Assembly (NCBI RefSeq): GCF_003722335.1
Contig: NZ_CP026100.1
Span: 1,152,001 to 1,216,000, forward strand
DNA: 64,000 nt
Reading direction: 5' to 3'
DNA from: Caulobacter flavus
Lineage (GTDB): Bacteria > Pseudomonadota > Alphaproteobacteria > Caulobacterales > Caulobacteraceae
In this document: positions 55,361 to 62,807 of the stretch, piece after piece
Numbering within the stretch: position 1 is the first letter of the stretch
Layout: each line of letters begins with the position of its first letter
Program-made: the position numbers and the translations under genes
The notes under the pieces: generated by a model
Seen by the model: the letters and a program-made list of their open reading frames with translations, nothing else
Told to the model about the DNA's origin: nothing
Databases searched by the model: none

Positions 55361-55965
55361 GCCTGGAGGGCTCCGTGCAGGCGCAGGAAGTCGAGCAGGC
55401 CGGTCATCGGCAGCCCGAGGATGGTGAAATAGTCGCCGTCGATCCGGTCGAACATCTGCAGGCCTTCGCCCTCCAACATGTAGCAGCCCACAGACGACCG
55501 GATGTGCTCGCCGTTGCGCTCCAGATAGCCGTCGAGCCAGGCCTCGCTGAACGGGCGCACCGACAGCCTGGCGGTCTCGACGATGCGCCAGATCGGCTGG
55601 CCGTCACGGGCTATCACGACGCCGGAATGCAGCTTGTGGACTTCTCCGCGCAGCTCCAGCAGGCGGGTGCGGGCCGCGTCCAGAGTGTCGACCTTGTCGA
55701 ACAGCCGGCCCTTCAGCTCCAGCGTCTGGTCCGAGCCGATCACGAGACTTCCGGGGCGCTTGTGGGAAACCTTGACCGCCTTCATCTCGGACAGGGCGTC
55801 GGCCACGTCGCGCGGGGTGACCTCCTCGGCCAGCAGGCCGGCCTTGGCGGCCTCTTCGTCCACACCCGAAGCCACGGCCTCGAACGGCACGCCGGCGTTC
55901 TTGAGGATCGTCTGGCGGGTCCAGCTGGTCGAGGCCAGCACGATGGGGGGAGGGGAGGCGCTCAT
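55357..55965 (-). CDS. maf: Maf-family nucleotide pyrophosphatase
   Basis: House-cleaning enzyme that hydrolyses modified nucleoside triphosphates. Start with [20 protein letters not shown], then DQTLEL and the C-terminal [12 protein letters not shown]. 202 aa. Overlaps both neighbours by 4 bases. Confidence 0.94.
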
Positions 55966-56864
55966 CCCAGCACCTCGACCTGGCCGCGGCCGCCCGACAG
56001 CAGGTTGATGATCGCCGCGGCCGTTTCCTCCACGGAGCGGCGGGTGACGTCGATGATCGGCCAGCCGTTCTTCTCGAACAGGCGGCGGGCGGCGATGATC
56101 TCGGCGCGCACGCTGTCAGTGTCGATATAGTCGCTCTCTCTATTCTCCTTGAGCGACAGCAGGCGGTTGCGGCGGATCTGGATCAGCCGCTCGGGCGTGG
56201 TCATCAGGCCGACGATCAGGGTGTTCTTCAGCTCGAACAGCTGCTCGGGCGGCGGCCGGCCCGGCACCAGCGGCACGTTGGCGGCGCGTACGCCGCGATG
56301 GGCCAGATAGATGCAGGTCGGGGTCTTGGAGGTGCGCGACACGCCCACCAGGATCACGTCGGCCTGGGTCAGGTCCTGGCCGCCCTGCCCGTCGTCGTGG
56401 GCGATGGCGTAATCCAGGGCCTCGATCCGGTCGAAATAGTCGTTGTTCAGCGCGTGCTGCGCGCCCACGCGCGTGGAGATCTTGGCCCCCAGATAGCGCG
56501 ACATGGCGCTCACCACCGGATCCAGCGCCGCGATGCACGGCATGTCGAGCTTGCGGCAGCCTTCCTCGAGCGCGGCGCGCAGGCCCGGATCGATGATGGT
56601 GTGCATGACCACGCCAGGCGCCCCGGCGATTTCCTCCAGGGCCCGGTCCAACTGCCGGATGGAACGAACCAGCGCGTAGATGTGTTCGATCGGCAGGATA
56701 TCGGTGAAGCGTGCACAGACCGCCCGAGCCATGGCGTTCAGGGTCTCGCCCGTCGAGTCCGAAACCAGGTGGATATGGAAGTAGGTCGCGAACCGCGCGG
56801 TGTGGCGATCGGCCTCAGGCGACGCACTGTCCTGTGGATCATCCGTTAAGGGTTGCTTTACCAC
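55962..56864 (-). CDS. ppsR: Putative pyruvate, phosphate dikinase regulatory protein (DUF299)
   Basis: Bifunctional kinase/phosphorylase of the PEP synthase/PPDK regulator family. FHIHLVSDSTGETLNAMARA near the start and the P-loop GVSRTSKTPTCIYLA in the second half, then RRLFEKNGWPIIDVTRRSVEETAA. GTG 56864 (300 aa) is chosen; the first 40 bases also hold a DnaA-box-like and a CtrA-like motif, so an ATG-rich longer start is less likely. In Caulobacter this gene flanks the chromosome origin on the side opposite hemE. Confidence 0.92.
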   Translation of the reverse strand: MVKQPLTDDPQDSASPEADRHTARFATYFHIHLVSDSTGETLNAMARAVCARFTDILPIEHIYALVRSIRQLDRALEEIAGAPGVVMHTIIDPGLRAALEEGCRKLDMPCIAALDPVVSAMSRYLGAKISTRVGAQHALNNDYFDRIEALDYAIAHDDGQGGQDLTQADVILVGVSRTSKTPTCIYLAHRGVRAANVPLVPGRPPPEQLFELKNTLIVGLMTTPERLIQIRRNRLLSLKENRESDYIDTDSVRAEIIAARRLFEKNGWPIIDVTRRSVEETAAAIINLLSGGRGQVEVLG

Positions 56865-57311
56865 TCTGGGAGCCTTCTGGGGACAAGCGGGCGCCAAATG
56901 CGCCCCAGCGCGACGCTGCGCCGCGCCCCTGTGATAAACGGCCTCATTGACGCCGGACAATCCCCAGCTTGAACCTGACCACCGGGACTTGTGCCCGCGC
57001 GTTTTCCCGCGCCTGTGGAAAGTCCTAACGGATGGTTAATTCCGCATTCACCATCGTCTGGGTTTCGTAAGGAATCCGATGGGTTGGAAGCTTGTCCACG
57101 AAGTTCACAAGGTATGACTCCCATGTGCACCAAGCTGGGGCATACCGAGTAGGGCCTGTTGGAGTTGTCCACCGGGGCGGACTTATCCCCGTGTTGCACT
57201 TGCCCTCCCCCTTCTTCCTCTCTTTCTAAGATTCTTATTTTTAAGAAGAATATGAGGGTACGGGATCGCACGGACTTGAGTGGAACGGCTCGCCGGGATT
57301 TAACGCCGGGT
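56821..57311. other. Probable chromosomal replication origin (Cori)
   Basis: The 447-base gap between divergent ppsR and hemE, plus the start of ppsR, matches the place of Cori in Caulobacter. Seen: TGTGGATCA (56833; complement of TGATCCACA, the Caulobacter DnaA G-box), TTGTCCACG (57092), TTGTCCACC (57165), TTATCCCCG (57183); CtrA-like TTAA-N7-TTTA (56846) and CTAA-N7-TTAA (57025); three GANTC methylation sites (57072, 57116, 57230); and an AT-rich tract (57222-57254) before hemE that could be the unwinding element. Confidence 0.85.
57025..57039 (-). promoter_or_regulatory. CtrA-like site in the origin
   Basis: On the minus strand TTAACCATCCGTTAG, i.e. TTAA-N7-TTAG, including the TTAACCAT half-site. 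Confidence 0.6.
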
Positions 57312-58340
57312 ATGACGAGCGCACCGATCCCGAAGTTTCTCTCCGTGCTGGCCGGCGAGACCGCCCAGAGGCCTCCGGTCTGGTTCATGCGCCAGGCGGG
57401 CCGGTATCTCCCCGAGTATCGCGCCGTCCGGGCGACGACGCCGGACTTCATCAGCTTCTGCCTGAACCCGGAAAAGGCCGCCGAGGTCACCCTGCAGCCG
57501 CTGCGCCGCTTTCCGTATGACGCCGCCATCGTCTTCGCCGACATCCTGCTGATCCCCGGCGCGCTGGGCCAGAAGGTCTGGTTCGAGGCCGGCGAGGGTC
57601 CCAAGCTCGGCGAGCTGCCCGATCTGGACGCCATGGCCGACAAGACCCAGCAGGCCGGCGAGGCCCTGAGGGCCGTCGGCGAGACCCTTTCGCGGGTCCG
57701 CGCCGACATCGATCCGTCCAAGGCCCTGATCGGCTTCGCCGGCGCGCCGTGGACGGTGGCGACCTACATGATCGAGGGCGGCTCCAGCGATCGTTCGGGC
57801 GCGCGCACCTTCGCCTATCAGCACGCCGACAAGCTGGACCGGCTGATCCAGATCCTGGTCGACGCCACGGTGGATTATCTGGCCATGCAGGCCGCTTCCG
57901 GCGCCCAGGCGCTGAAGCTGTTCGAGAGCTGGGCTGAGGGTCTCTCCGAGCCGCTTTTCGAGCGTCTGGTGACCAGGCCCCACATCGCCATCGTCGAAGG
58001 CCTTCGGGCGCGCGGCGTGACCGTGCCGCTCATCGGCTTCCCGCGGGGGGCCGGCACACTCGTCGAGGCCTACGCGCAGGCCGTGCCGGTGGACGGCGTG
58101 GCGCTGGACACCTCGGCCTCGGCGAAGCTGGGCCAGGCGATCCAGAAGACCAAGACCATCCAGGGCGCGCTCGACCCGCTGCTGCTGCGGGCCGGCGGTC
58201 CGGCGCTGGACGAGCGCGTCGACCAGATGCTCGAGCAATGGGGGCAGGGCCCCTATATCTTCAATCTGGGCCACGGCATCCTGCCCGACACGCCGATCGC
58301 TCATGTCGAGCAGGTGCTGAAGCGGGTGACTGGCCTGTGA
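57312..58340 (+). CDS. hemE: Uroporphyrinogen decarboxylase
   Basis: Heme synthesis: converts uroporphyrinogen III to coproporphyrinogen III. Signature PPVWFMRQAGRYLPEYR near the start, FADILLIPGALGQKV, and GFAGAPWTVATYMIEGG. 342 aa, starting at ATG 57312; upstream in-frame ATGs fall in the origin. The stop overlaps the hemH start (GTGA). Its promoter region lies within the origin, as in Caulobacter. Confidence 0.97.
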   Translation: MTSAPIPKFLSVLAGETAQRPPVWFMRQAGRYLPEYRAVRATTPDFISFCLNPEKAAEVTLQPLRRFPYDAAIVFADILLIPGALGQKVWFEAGEGPKLGELPDLDAMADKTQQAGEALRAVGETLSRVRADIDPSKALIGFAGAPWTVATYMIEGGSSDRSGARTFAYQHADKLDRLIQILVDATVDYLAMQAASGAQALKLFESWAEGLSEPLFERLVTRPHIAIVEGLRARGVTVPLIGFPRGAGTLVEAYAQAVPVDGVALDTSASAKLGQAIQKTKTIQGALDPLLLRAGGPALDERVDQMLEQWGQGPYIFNLGHGILPDTPIAHVEQVLKRVTGL

Positions 58341-59392
58341 GCGAATTGAAGAGCGGGCGAAAGATCGCCGTCGTCCTGTTCAATCTGGGCGGGCCCGACG
58401 GCCAGGCGGCGGTGCGGCCGTTCCTGTTCAACCTGTTTCGCGACCCGGCGATCATCCAGGCGCCGTTCTTCATCCGCTATCCGGTCGCCGCCCTGATCTC
58501 CACCACCCGGGCCAAGTCGGCGCGCGCCAACTACGCCCTGATGGGCGGCGGCTCGCCCCTGCTGCCGGAAACGGAGAAACAGGCGCGGGCTCTGGAGGCG
58601 GTGCTGGCCCAGCGCCTGCCGGACGACGAGGTCAAGGCCTTCGTCGCCATGCGCTACTGGGATCCGCTGACCGGGCAGACCGCCCGGGCGGTGAAGGCCT
58701 GGAAGCCCGACGAGGTCGTGCTGCTGCCGCTCTATCCGCAGTATTCGACGACGACGACGGCGTCGTCGCTGAAGGCGTGGGAGCGCGCCTGGCGCAAGGT
58801 CGGCGGGCGCAGGGGGGCGGCTCGCACGACGACCGTGTGTTGCTATCCCACGGCCGACGGTTTCGTGCAGGCGCACGCGGATCTGATCCGCGCCGAATAC
58901 GCCAAGGCCGGTTCGCCCAGGCCCGCGCGCATCCTTTTCTCGGCTCACGGCCTGCCGGAAAAGGTGATCCTGGCCGGCGATCCCTACCAGCGCCAGGTCG
59001 AGGCCACGGCCGCCGCGGTCGCCGAAAGGCTTGGCGACGTCCTGGGCGAGGGCGTCGACTGGAAGATCAGCTACCAGAGCCGCGTCGGCCCGCTGAAATG
59101 GATCGGCCCGTCCACCGACGACGAGATCAAGGCCGCGTCCGAGGCCGGCCTGGCGCTGGTCGTCACGCCGATCGCCTTCGTCTCCGAGCACATCGAGACG
59201 CTGGTCGAGCTGGACGTCGAATATCGCGAGCTGGCCTACGAGCACGGCGGTTCGATCTACGCCCGCGTGCCGGCCCTTGGCGTCGCGCCCGCGTTCATCG
59301 ATTGTTTGGGGACTCTCGTCACCGAGGCCCTCGCCGATGCTTCGTCGCTGATCTGCGAAGAAGACCAACCCTGCCCCGGAGCCGCCGCGTGA
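58337..59392 (+). CDS. hemH: Ferrochelatase
   Basis: Inserts Fe2+ into protoporphyrin IX. Motifs: VVLFNLGGPD, PLYPQYSTTTTASS, LFSAHGLPEKVI (catalytic His), YQSRVGPLKWIGP, and PIAFVSEHIETLVELD. 351 aa. A C-terminal Cys pair (LICEEDQPCPG) is present, but no full cluster motif is evident. GTG start coupled to hemE, stop coupled to hemJ. Confidence 0.97.
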   Translation: MSELKSGRKIAVVLFNLGGPDGQAAVRPFLFNLFRDPAIIQAPFFIRYPVAALISTTRAKSARANYALMGGGSPLLPETEKQARALEAVLAQRLPDDEVKAFVAMRYWDPLTGQTARAVKAWKPDEVVLLPLYPQYSTTTTASSLKAWERAWRKVGGRRGAARTTTVCCYPTADGFVQAHADLIRAEYAKAGSPRPARILFSAHGLPEKVILAGDPYQRQVEATAAAVAERLGDVLGEGVDWKISYQSRVGPLKWIGPSTDDEIKAASEAGLALVVTPIAFVSEHIETLVELDVEYRELAYEHGGSIYARVPALGVAPAFIDCLGTLVTEALADASSLICEEDQPCPGAAA

Positions 59393-59853
59393 CCGACTTC
59401 CTGGTCGAGCATTTCAACCTGATCCGCGGCCTGCACATCCTGGCCGTGATCGCCTGGATGGCGGGGATGCTCTACCTGCCGCGCCTCTACGTCTACCACA
59501 CCGGGGCCACGCTCGGCTCGGAGATGGACGCCACCTTCAAGGTCATGGAGCGGCGGCTGCTGCGCGGGATCATCAATCCGGCGATGATCGCGGCCCTGGT
59601 CTTCGGCCTCTGCCTGATCATGGCGGACGGCGTGATCCGCGGCTGGGACTTCCTGCTGAAGCCCTGGATGCTGGCCAAGCTGGCCGGCGTGTTCTTCCTG
59701 TTCGGCTGGCACGGCTTCCTGTCGAAGGCCCGAAAGGCGTTCGAGGCCGGCCAGAACACCCGCTCGGAGAAGTTCTGGCGGGCGACCAACGAGCTGCCCT
59801 TCGTGGCGGCGATCGTCATCGTGCTGTCGGTGACGACCAAGTACCTGAACTAG
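59389..59853 (+). CDS. hemJ: Protoporphyrinogen oxidase HemJ
   Basis: Four-helix membrane protein catalysing the step before HemH. Conserved N-terminal HILAVIAWMAGMLYLPRLYVYH with the essential His, and KPWMLAKLAGVFFLFGWHGFL. 154 aa. GTG start coupled to hemH. hemE-hemH-hemJ give three of the last four heme steps. Confidence 0.93.
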   Translation: MTDFLVEHFNLIRGLHILAVIAWMAGMLYLPRLYVYHTGATLGSEMDATFKVMERRLLRGIINPAMIAALVFGLCLIMADGVIRGWDFLLKPWMLAKLAGVFFLFGWHGFLSKARKAFEAGQNTRSEKFWRATNELPFVAAIVIVLSVTTKYLN

Positions 59854-60160
59854 CGGGAAGGGCGCCTGGCCCGGCATTCTCCCGTCTTCATCCCCCGCCT
59901 GTGTGGCGACAGCCCACAGGACTGCTCTGGTAGCGCTTGACCGGGACCCCGCCTTGTGGTTCCCGTCTTGGTCAGACGTTGTGGTCATACCGCAGCGTTC
60001 CCGCCTTTCACGGATCGCGCCCGTCCTGGAGCGCCCCATGATCCGTTCCCCTGATCGATCCGCGCCGTCGTCATGGCGCGACCCCATCGCCGCCTTCCCG
60101 TGAAGCCGGCTGAATTTCTATCCAAGCCCGGATCGTATCCGGGCCACTGTGAGTCTATGC
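59854..60160 (+). promoter_or_regulatory. Leader of rho
   Basis: About 300 bases, pyrimidine-rich stretches (CCCGTCTTCATCCCCCGCC), and a perfect 8-bp hairpin (GCCCGGAT-CGT-ATCCGGGC, 60126-60144) 16 bases before ATG. Rho commonly limits its own synthesis through such leaders. No gene is seen here. Confidence 0.5.
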
Positions 60161-61606
60161 ATGTCTGAAGACACCGACCCGCAAGTCCCCGAACTGGAAA
60201 CCGTCGACGCGACGGAAGAGGGTTCGGCCGAGATCGCGATCGACACCACCGTCGAAGCTTCCGTCGAGGGCGCCTCCGAAGGCGACATGGGCGACGAAGA
60301 CGACAACGCCGAGATCACGGCGGCCATCGCCGCCATGGGCCTGACGCGCATGTCGCTGCAGGAACTGAAGGAAAAGTCCCCGGCCGACCTGCTGGCGTTC
60401 GCCGAGACCTTCGAGGTCGAGAACGCCAACTCCATGCGCAAGCAGGACATGATGTTCGCCATCCTGAAGACCCTCGCCGAGGAAGGCGTGGAGATCTTCG
60501 GTTCGGGCACCATGGAAGTGGTTCAGGACGGCTTCGGCTTCCTGCGCTCGCCGGAAGCCAACTACCTGCCCGGTCCGGACGACATCTACGTCTCGCCCTC
60601 GCAGATCCGCAAGTTCGGCCTGCGCACCGGCGACAGCGTCGAGGGCGCGATCCGCTCGCCGCGCGAAGGCGAGCGCTACTTCGCCCTGACCAGCGTCTCG
60701 AAGATCAACTTCGAAAGCCCGGAAAACGTGCGTCACAAGGTGCACTTCGACAACCTGACGCCGCTCTATCCCGAAGAGCGCCTGAACATGGAACTGCCCG
60801 ATCCGACCATCAAGGATCGCTCGGGCCGCGTCATCGACATCGTCGCTCCGCTCGGCAAGGGCCAGCGCTGCCTGATCGTCGCCCCGCCGCGGGTGGGTAA
60901 GACGGTGATGTTGCAGAACATCGCCAAGTCGATCGAGACCAACCACCCCGAGTGCTATCTGATCGTCCTGCTGATCGACGAGCGCCCGGAAGAAGTCACC
61001 GACATGCAGCGTACGGTGAAGGGCGAGGTCATCGCCTCGACCTTCGACGAGCCGGCCACGCGCCACGTGCAAGTCGCCGAGATGGTTATCGAGAAGGCCA
61101 AGCGCCTGGTCGAGCACAAGCGCGACGTCGTCATCCTGCTGGACTCGGTCACCCGCCTGGGCCGCGCCTACAACACCACCGTCCCGTCGTCGGGCAAGGT
61201 GCTGACCGGCGGCGTCGACGCCAACGCCCTGCAGCGCCCCAAGCGCTTCTTCGGCGCCGCGCGCAACGTGGAAGAGGGCGGCTCGCTGTCGATCATCGCC
61301 ACGGCCCTGATCGACACCGGCAGCCGCATGGACGAAGTCATCTTCGAAGAGTTCAAGGGCACCGGTAACTCGGAAATCGTCCTCGACCGCAAGGTGGCCG
61401 ACAAGCGCATATTCCCGGCCATCGACGTGCTCAAGTCGGGCACCCGCAAGGAAGAGCTCATCACCCCGCGCGACCAGCTGCAGAAGACCTATGTGCTGCG
61501 CCGGATCCTCAATCCGATGGGCGCTTCGGACGCCATCGAGTTCCTGCTCGACAAGCTCCGTCAGTCGAAGACGAACGGGGATTTCTTCCAGAGCATGAAT
61601 ACTTAA
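60161..61606 (+). CDS. rho: Transcription termination factor Rho
   Basis: Hexameric RNA helicase. An acidic N-terminal extension of about 55 residues (rich in Glu/Asp) precedes the usual N-terminal domain ([19 protein letters not shown]). The RNA-binding OB fold has [22 protein letters not shown]. The ATPase core has Walker A APPRVGKT (about 241-248), [13 protein letters not shown] and [13 protein letters not shown]. 481 aa. Start at ATG 60161; GTG 60149 is possible. parS and a terminator follow. Confidence 0.97.
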
Positions 61607-61612
61607 GCTTGG

Positions 61613-61628
61613 TGTTTCACGTGAAACA
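61613..61628. other. parS (ParB-binding site)
   Basis: TGTTTCACGTGAAACA, a perfect 16-bp palindrome identical to the conserved bacterial parS consensus, 7 bases after the rho stop and about 4.3 kb from the origin. Confidence 0.93.
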
Positions 61629-61632
61629 CGAG

Positions 61633-61663
61633 AAAGGCCCCGGAGCGATCCGGGGCCTTTTTT
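61633..61663 (+). terminator. Terminator after rho
   Basis: Stem AAAGGCCCCGGA / TCCGGGGCCTTT with a GCGA loop and a T run of six. Confidence 0.9.
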
Positions 61664-61683
61664 GTTGGTAAACTGGTGGTGGG

Positions 61684-61791
61684 ACCCCCTCAGTCGGCTC
61701 CGCCGACAGCTCCCCCAAGGGGGGAGCATCCCCGCACCAGATCCTCCCCTTGGGGGGAGGTGGCCCGGAGGGCCGGAGGGGGACTTCTCCG
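61684..61791. repeat. Repeat family R2, complete copy
   Basis: CCCCCTCAGTCGGCTCCGCC ... CTTGGGGGGAGGTGGCCCGG ... CCGGAGGGGGACTTCTCC. Matches 48066-48136 closely; sits after rho and the parS site, before the convergent oxidoreductase. Confidence 0.75.
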
Positions 61792-61841
61792 GCCGTGGAA
61801 ATTTCCCTCGACGGCTACAGGACGAAACCCTCGCTCCCGCC

Positions 61842-62807
61842 CTAAGGCACGAGCACCGTCGCCCCGGTCGTCTTCCGTCCCTCCAACGCCTCATGCGCCG
61901 CCCGAGCCTCGGACAGCGGGAACCGCTGGCCGATCTCGACCTTCACCGCGCCCGAGGCCAGAACCTCGAACAGCGCCGCGGCGCTCTCGTCGAGCTCCTC
62001 GGTAGTGACGATGTAGTCGAACAGCCGGGGCCGGGTGATCCACGCCGACTTGGCGCCCAGCTCCAGCGGCGCGAATGGCGGCACGGGCCCCGAGGCGTTG
62101 CCGTAGGTCACCAGCACGCCGCGCCGGCCCAGGCTCTTGAGGCTGCCCCGGAACGTCGCCGCGCCGACGCCGTCATAGACGACCGGCACACCGGCCCCGC
62201 CGGTGATCTCGGCCACACGGGCGGCGACGTCCTGGTGGTCGTAGAGGATCACGTGGTCGGCGCCGAGGTCGCGAACGACCTGGGCCTTGGCCTCCGAGCC
62301 AACCGTGGCGATGACCGTGGCGCCCAGGGCCTTGACCCACTGCACCAGGATCTGGCCGACCCCGCCGGCGGCGGCATGGACCAGCACGGCCTGGCCGGTC
62401 TTCACGGGAAAGCAGCGACGCACCAGGAATTCGGCCGTCATGCCCTTGAGCAGGGACGCGGCAGCCACGTCCAGTTCGACGTCGTCCGGAACCTTCACCG
62501 CCCGATCGGCCGGGACGACCGAAGCCTCCGCATAGGCGCCCATCGTGCCGTTGTAGGCGACACGGTCGCCCACGGCGAAGCGGCTGACGCCCTCGCCGAC
62601 GGCCTCCACGTGACCGGCGGCCTCCAGGCCCAGCACCTGCGGGTACTTCACGGGATAAAGGCCCGAGCGGTGATAGGTGTCGATGAAATTCAGTCCGACG
62701 GCCGCGTGGCGGACGAGGATCTGGCCGGGGCCGGGCGAGGGGAGGTCGCGCTCCACGACCTCCAGAACCTCGGGGCCGCCCGCGGCCTTGGCTTCGACCG
62801 CCAGCAT
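61842..62807 (-). CDS. Zinc-independent quinone oxidoreductase (QOR-type MDR)
   Basis: NADPH:quinone reductase-like protein of 321 aa. GroES-like N-terminus with IDTYHRSGLYPVKYP and GLEAAGHVEAVGEGV; NADPH-binding HAAAGGVGQILVQWVKALGA; no zinc cysteines. Starts one base within the stop of the upstream dienelactone hydrolase (TGATG). Confidence 0.92.
   Translation of the reverse strand: MLAVEAKAAGGPEVLEVVERDLPSPGPGQILVRHAAVGLNFIDTYHRSGLYPVKYPQVLGLEAAGHVEAVGEGVSRFAVGDRVAYNGTMGAYAEASVVPADRAVKVPDDVELDVAAASLLKGMTAEFLVRRCFPVKTGQAVLVHAAAGGVGQILVQWVKALGATVIATVGSEAKAQVVRDLGADHVILYDHQDVAARVAEITGGAGVPVVYDGVGAATFRGSLKSLGRRGVLVTYGNASGPVPPFAPLELGAKSAWITRPRLFDYIVTTEELDESAAALFEVLASGAVKVEIGQRFPLSEARAAHEALEGRKTTGATVLVP

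Follow-up and report, generated by a model that had tools for sequence, protein, structure and literature searches.

Does the interval between ppsR and hemE act as the chromosome replication origin of Caulobacter flavus, and is it wired to the cell cycle like its counterpart in C. crescentus? Cori of C. crescentus is the textbook origin under a cell-cycle response regulator, and the ppsR-hemE interval is the established origin of that species (PMC1914354; PMC4468827; PMC4285127). We found that the interval described here is very probably an origin of this known kind and that what differs is the degraded look of its CtrA sites, in one branch of the genus.

The ppsR-hemE interval and its setting in the chromosome

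The chromosome is a single contig of 5,659,202 bases, from which a 64-kb stretch (C1:1152001-1216000; the window) was analysed. Positions 56821-57311 of the window form the interval between the divergent genes ppsR (minus strand) and hemE (plus strand), and hemE is followed by hemH and rho. The features expected of a hemE/COG1806-type origin were all found, namely the divergent gene pair, a cluster of DnaA boxes, raised AT content and, close by, parS and a skew switch (on sampled stretches). Because gene order, motif cluster, sampled skew, the placement of parS and dnaA and the published status of the C. crescentus interval agree, we place the chromosome replication origin between about codon 11 of ppsR and the hemE start and take it to be orthologous to Cori, with a probability of about 0.95. 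A sequence-only reading of the window had named the same interval as the origin, and gene order, motifs, sampled skew, parS and the position of dnaA bear it out. In G011 and G072, two relatives with single-contig chromosomes, base numbering begins within the ppsR-hemE interval.

The motifs are collected in Table 1. The G-box, three DnaA-like motifs, two CtrA-like boxes, three GANTC sites and AT-rich tract listed by the earlier reading were all recovered at their places. GC content is 57% in the interval and 70% in the window, and the lowest-GC 40-mer of the whole window (25% GC) lies at 57212-57251. Four of the eight TTNTCCMC matches in the window fall within 56700-57420, where its density predicts 0.09, and DnaA-like 9-mers with up to two mismatches number seven in the same segment (0.71 expected). 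A scan of DnaA-box density over 734,000 bases (13% of the genome, the dnaA stretch included) placed the densest 500-bp cluster of TTNTCCMC or [TC]GATCCACA in this interval, with five boxes and a maximum of two elsewhere. The genome contains 61 copies of TGATCCACA and five of the E. coli box TTATCCACA, none of the latter at the origin. No match to the IHF pattern WATCAANNNNTTR, a consensus and not the published C. crescentus IHF sequence, was found within 721 bp at up to one mismatch.

Table 1. Features of the ppsR-hemE interval and its surroundings, in window coordinates. Conservation counts over nine genomes derive from an alignment of the clade to which this genome belongs.
Feature	Position	Strand	Remarks
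ppsR (COG1806/DUF299)	55962..56864	-	GTG start at 56864, 300 aa; NCBIfam NF003742, 342.7 bits (cut-off 225)
DnaA G-box TGATCCACA (also written TGTGGATCA)	56833..56841	-	ppsR codons 8-11; exact in 7/9 clade genomes, CGATCCACA in 2
CtrA-type site 1 (TTAA-N7-TTTA, one mismatch)	56846..56860		ppsR codons 2-6; perfect in 14/14 aligned non-clade rows
W-box-type DnaA site TTGTCCCCA	56878..56886	-	unchanged in 9/9 clade genomes
W-box TCCCCA	56961..56966	+	unchanged in 9/9 clade genomes
Weak DnaA-like site CTTTCCACA	57014..57022	-	same in 6/9 clade genomes
CtrA-type site 2' (CTAA-N7-TTAA, one mismatch)	57025..57039		half-sites kept in 9/9 clade genomes, spacer variable
GANTC (CcrM) site	57072..57076		GAATC in 6, GATTC in 3; GANTC in 9/9
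DnaA box TTGTCCACG (TTGTCCAC core)	57092..57100	+	9/9 clade genomes; TCCMC core here in 18/18 aligned rows
GANTC site	57116..57120		present in 6/9 clade genomes
DnaA-like site TTGTCCACC (TTGTCCAC core, 57165)	57165..57173	+	5/9 clade genomes; TCNTCCACA in 4
DnaA-like site TTATCCCCG (TTATCCCC at 57183)	57183..57191	+	unchanged in 9/9 clade genomes
AT-rich tract, presumed unwinding element	57212..57257		contains the lowest-GC 40-mer of the window
GANTC site	57230..57234		GATTC in 7, GAATC in 2; GANTC in 9/9
hemE, uroporphyrinogen decarboxylase	57312..58340	+	TIGR01464, 386.8 bits (cut-off 302.95)
parS GTTTCACGTGAAAC	61614..61627		first of three exact genome copies

Across the nine clade genomes the box cores are kept while the spacers of the CtrA sites vary, a pattern that resembles a footprint. 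The W-box TCCCCA known from Cori is represented by two exact, clade-invariant copies; for C. crescentus itself five W-boxes are reported (PMC4285127). The likeness to Cori extends to the flanking genes (hemE and CC_0001/COG1806), the G-box TGATCCACA, the TCCCCA W-boxes, the AT-rich region and a parS within 8 kb (PMC1914354; PMC4285127; PMC4468827; PMC8959179). Pattern searches revealed one TGATCCACA G-box here where the literature counts two, yet the same pattern also finds only one in the C. crescentus-like genome G072. Exact TTNTCCAC-type DnaA boxes, absent in G072, occur once or twice in each clade origin and once in 6 of 47 other rows of the genus. The origins of other Caulobacter lineages share the aligned DnaA box, the AT tract and, in most, a G-box in the same ppsR phase.

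The wider chromosome was surveyed through 20 sampled 20-kb stretches. Seven of nine stretches on the ppsR side had negative GC skew, and ten of eleven on the hemE side had positive skew; this skew is weak, and both portions of the window are slightly negative. The cumulative minimum, computed on a contiguous 264 kb, lies at 1,214,637, which is 5.3 kb from the interval. The cumulative maximum is at 4,118,524 (within 4.10-4.19 Mb) and the far skew switch falls at 4.12-4.17 Mb; the antipode, at 4.04 Mb, is about 0.1 Mb away. A skew switch elsewhere, which the earlier reading had named as evidence against its own proposal, was looked for on the sampled stretches and did not appear. The genome has a sole parS cluster (1,213,614-1,217,272; three exact copies and one with a single mismatch) at 4.3-8 kb from the interval, and one further single-mismatch match stands isolated at 2.28 Mb. 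The DnaA family has a single match, at 1,236,834, 27.5 kb from the interval. For the terminus the picture is less tidy, since the strand bias of GGGNAGGG, which we take to be a KOPS-like motif, flips at 3.70-3.96 Mb, ahead of the skew maximum. No dif site was found with an E. coli-like pattern at up to three mismatches.

That the motif cluster is a mere divergent ppsR/hemE promoter under DnaA and CtrA, with replication starting elsewhere, for example beside dnaA, is highly improbable: the two genes are indeed divergent, the motifs double as transcription-factor sites and dnaA is 27.5 kb off, but both the skew minimum and parS are located at the ppsR-hemE interval, the 20-kb stretch bearing dnaA lacks any 500-bp window with at least two boxes, and the same interval is the known C. 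crescentus origin (PMC1914354; PMC4468827).

An Rfam search over 55500-62500 returned eight matches up to E = 1, none of them inside the interval. Sub-threshold matches (BjrC68, Phe_leader, CsrC and others) pile up at 61594-61669 on the parS palindrome behind rho; the inverted repeat probably attracts them by chance.

Origin motifs inside the ppsR reading frame

The last ATG, GTG or TTG ahead of the conserved PpsR domain is the GTG at 56864, so that the G-box and CtrA site 1 fall inside the ppsR frame. Both are held by codons 2-11 (GTA AAG CAA CCC TTA ACG GAT GAT CCA CAG). The earlier reading had already placed a G-box and a CtrA-like box within the start of ppsR, and comparison across the genus strengthens this observation. 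In 41 of 48 genus loci [TC]GATCCACA was found upstream of the PpsR domain at distances of 61, 64, 67 or 70 bases, that is, in a single phase. The other seven loci lack it, and their HemE is 71-77% identical to that of the window over the part compared.

Codon usage in this stretch was counted in rows picked by the peptide alone, which avoids a bias towards the G-box. This retained 48 of 58 genomes, 44 of them with a G-box, and left out one genome without the domain motif and nine without the peptide. Leucine codon 6 was TTA in 48/48, a codon used for none of the 526 leucines that these genes have within the domain's first 100 codons. Proline codon 10 was CCA in 48/48 (5/235 in the domain's first 100 codons), and glutamine codon 4 was CAA in all 46 genomes with glutamine at this position (11/49 in the domain). 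The start codon was GTG in 41 genomes and TTG in seven. Within the clade, the CtrA spacer in ppsR tolerates a change from proline to serine, with the half-sites unchanged among nine genomes.

These codons might also have been frozen by selection on translation initiation or on the peptide that they encode at the N-terminus. The peptide VKQPLTDDPQ is itself conserved, and AT-rich codons are often favoured in the start regions of genes. We nonetheless regard this explanation as improbable, since TTA and CCA were invariant in 48 rows chosen by peptide against 0/526 and 5/235 in the domain, the proline-to-serine change is allowed in the CtrA spacer while the half-sites stay fixed, and the frozen stretch is the very place of the G-box and the CtrA box. 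The single-phase G-box, the frozen codons and the half-sites that remain fixed despite the amino acid change thus argue that the origin reaches into ppsR and that selection acts on the DNA. On these comparative grounds the overlap is judged real and old. With its frozen codons, ppsR offers a clean example of replication control overlapping a protein code. Our literature search, of partial coverage, found no report of frozen G-box codons in ppsR or of a Caulobacter clade without full CtrA boxes.

The ppsR leader may have a further counterpart in C. crescentus. The published ncRNA CcnA is described as having a CtrA box in its promoter, another at its end and three weak DnaA boxes inside; from that description CcnA would run toward ppsR and end near its start codon. 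The corresponding stretch of this genome (window 56846-57003, minus strand) is conserved in the clade and differs in its promoter box. Two inverted W-boxes could form the stem of a CcnA-like RNA, and a consensus of the ppsR leader from 20 genomes contains this stem with a z-score of about -7 against shuffled columns, a shuffle that destroys local order. The ends of the stem are DnaA boxes; hence no conclusion about RNA was drawn.

Loss of perfect CtrA boxes in one Caulobacter clade

The two CtrA-like boxes of the sequence-only reading are present, and what that reading did not contain is their degeneracy relative to the rest of the genus, which emerged from comparison only. CtrA matches with up to one mismatch number three in this region; 2000 first-order simulations gave 0.09 on average (P about 0.0005). 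The third match (57036-57050) overlaps the second (57025-57039), and these two have a half-site in common. The multiple full boxes of a C. crescentus-type Cori were not found, and two separate, conserved one-mismatch sites occupy the interval instead. This contrasts with Cori itself, for which the literature gives five binding sites, and with G072, where four perfect boxes are found by pattern.

A sample of 75 Caulobacter genomes (three without a match) yielded 58 loci for analysis, with 17 left out, and 55 of these entered a tree built from the flanking ppsR and hemE DNA. No perfect TTAA-N7-TTAA was found between the PpsR domain and HemE in any of the nine clade genomes (8/8 of those in the tree; the ninth, L104, stands outside the tree and is counted in the alignment). 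All 47 other delimited origins of the genus retain two, three or four perfect boxes. Outside the delimited set, L120 (G023) has an undelimited locus with two perfect boxes, and L174 (G007) is a ppsR without adjoining hemE. The SH-aLRT support of the clade is 100, and a single change accounts for the loss, which is one event and not nine. An assembly or alignment error was ruled out as its source, since nine genomes agree.

An alignment of 18 representatives shows how the boxes were lost. G072 and G011 have four perfect boxes, of which one carries a single mismatch in the clade rows and the other three carry three to six. The first is the ppsR box, whose mismatch in the clade is a synonymous change of codon 2 from GTT to GTA. 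The AT-tract box is perfect in 13/14 aligned non-clade rows. Here it shows four mismatches, and a GANTC site now occupies its place and is kept in 9/9 clade genomes despite a varying middle base. The two middle boxes have three to six mismatches in the clade. Loss of the one closer to hemE is not confined to the clade, as 10 of the 14 other rows lack it too. Site 2' is not new: in the same alignment columns L139 has a perfect box and L124 has one with a single mismatch. Genome-wide, TTAA-N7-TTAAC occurs 5-10 times in the nine clade genomes and 7-17 times in other genomes of the genus with at least 90% completeness, and part of this gap consists of the origin boxes themselves.

Strength of CtrA control and comparison with other hemE origins

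CtrA is present in the clade at 97-98% identity (97% in this genome). Relative to CtrA of C. crescentus, the DNA-binding half has V133I and H206Q in the clade, and some members show a further change in the tail, at 228 or 229. An altered specificity of CtrA was considered and rejected, since V133I and H206Q are shared by G009 and G040, whose origins (L117 and L112) keep two perfect boxes, and since a perfect box persists upstream of ftsZ (TIGR00065, 344.6 bits) in the C. flavus genome. The box upstream of ctrA is TTAACCAGTCTTAAA, with one mismatch, and is identical in this genome and in G072.

With two one-mismatch sites remaining and a CtrA of 97-98% identity, control of the clade origin is probably weakened and not gone. 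One-mismatch sites may work, as the ctrA-promoter box itself has one mismatch, and we give somewhat under even odds to the alternative that control is intact because the two one-mismatch sites equal perfect boxes in their binding of CtrA. The half-sites are kept while the spacers vary, including the proline-to-serine change in ppsR, a one-mismatch box precedes ctrA in G072 as well, and site 2' occupies the columns of the perfect L139 box, all of which would fit intact control. Against it stand the 47 other delimited origins of the genus with their two to four perfect boxes, and the clade's having only one of the four G072/G011 boxes at a single mismatch and three at three to six. Beyond weakened control, the whole clade could have unplugged its origin from the CtrA brake while keeping other CtrA targets such as ftsZ, with the synonymous change in ppsR codon 2 as one step. 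We consider this doubtful. If true, replication timing in the clade would rest on DnaA and methylation alone, and the clade would be a natural version of the laboratory mutants without CtrA sites.

For the working of the origin, C. crescentus serves as our guide. DnaA-ATP would bind the G-box and the TTGTCCACG box, spread over the weak boxes and open the AT-rich tract beside hemE. Phosphorylated CtrA would compete from the weak sites 1 and 2', site 1 being four bases from the G-box within ppsR codons 2-6, and this competition should be weaker here. CcrM would methylate the conserved GANTC sites, and parS, 4-8 kb away, would then drive segregation.

With lineages that have two perfect boxes, others that have four and a clade that has none, the genus makes it possible to ask what purpose CtrA control serves. 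A review describes the use of CtrA at origins as flexible in evolution and states that freshwater Caulobacter conserve four of the five sites (PMC4468827). The same review reports that lowering CtrA affinity at all five Cori sites in the laboratory caused only a mild disturbance of the cycle (PMC4468827, on Bastedo and Marczynski 2009).

Zero boxes are not unique to the clade, an idea ruled out by such origins in other genera: hemE origins of this type also occur in the family genera g3 and g7 and in Brevundimonas diminuta (L054), in other lineages. For g3 and g7, 39 genomes were taken from 298 searched, and the g7 loci were located by tblastn (2/20 dropped). A perfect box was lacking in 2/18 genomes of g7 and 7/19 of g3, and four g3 genomes were without even a one-mismatch site. 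These hemE origins (L275, L276, L283 and L285) also lack the TCCACA core. Among 32 named loci, those without a perfect box were L010 (Phenylobacterium), L023, L029 (Maricaulaceae) and L054. The CtrA wiring of hemE origins beyond the genus is therefore loose.

More distantly, Rickettsia and Wolbachia have origins beside hemE with predicted DnaA, CtrA and IHF sites (PMC1914354), although their genomes are AT-rich and Wolbachia has COG1253 in place of COG1806 beside hemE. In the stalked budding species Hyphomonas neptunium, CtrA is reported to bind next to the origin (PMC7200025), a likeness by description and not by origin sequence.

Two further observations concern the loci sampled. L067, L080 and L023, titled Bacillus sp., Bacillus subtilis and Bordetella sp., contain ppsR-hemE pairs of alphaproteobacterial type and are probably mislabelled or contaminated. 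In G007, a member of the genus, ppsR and hemE (L174 and L217; C1:4381947 and C1:95687) lie about 290 kb apart when the contig is taken as circular. A CtrA box, W-boxes and an AT-richer tract adjoin hemE in this genome and were not seen next to ppsR, and the split is a natural test for which flank bears the origin.
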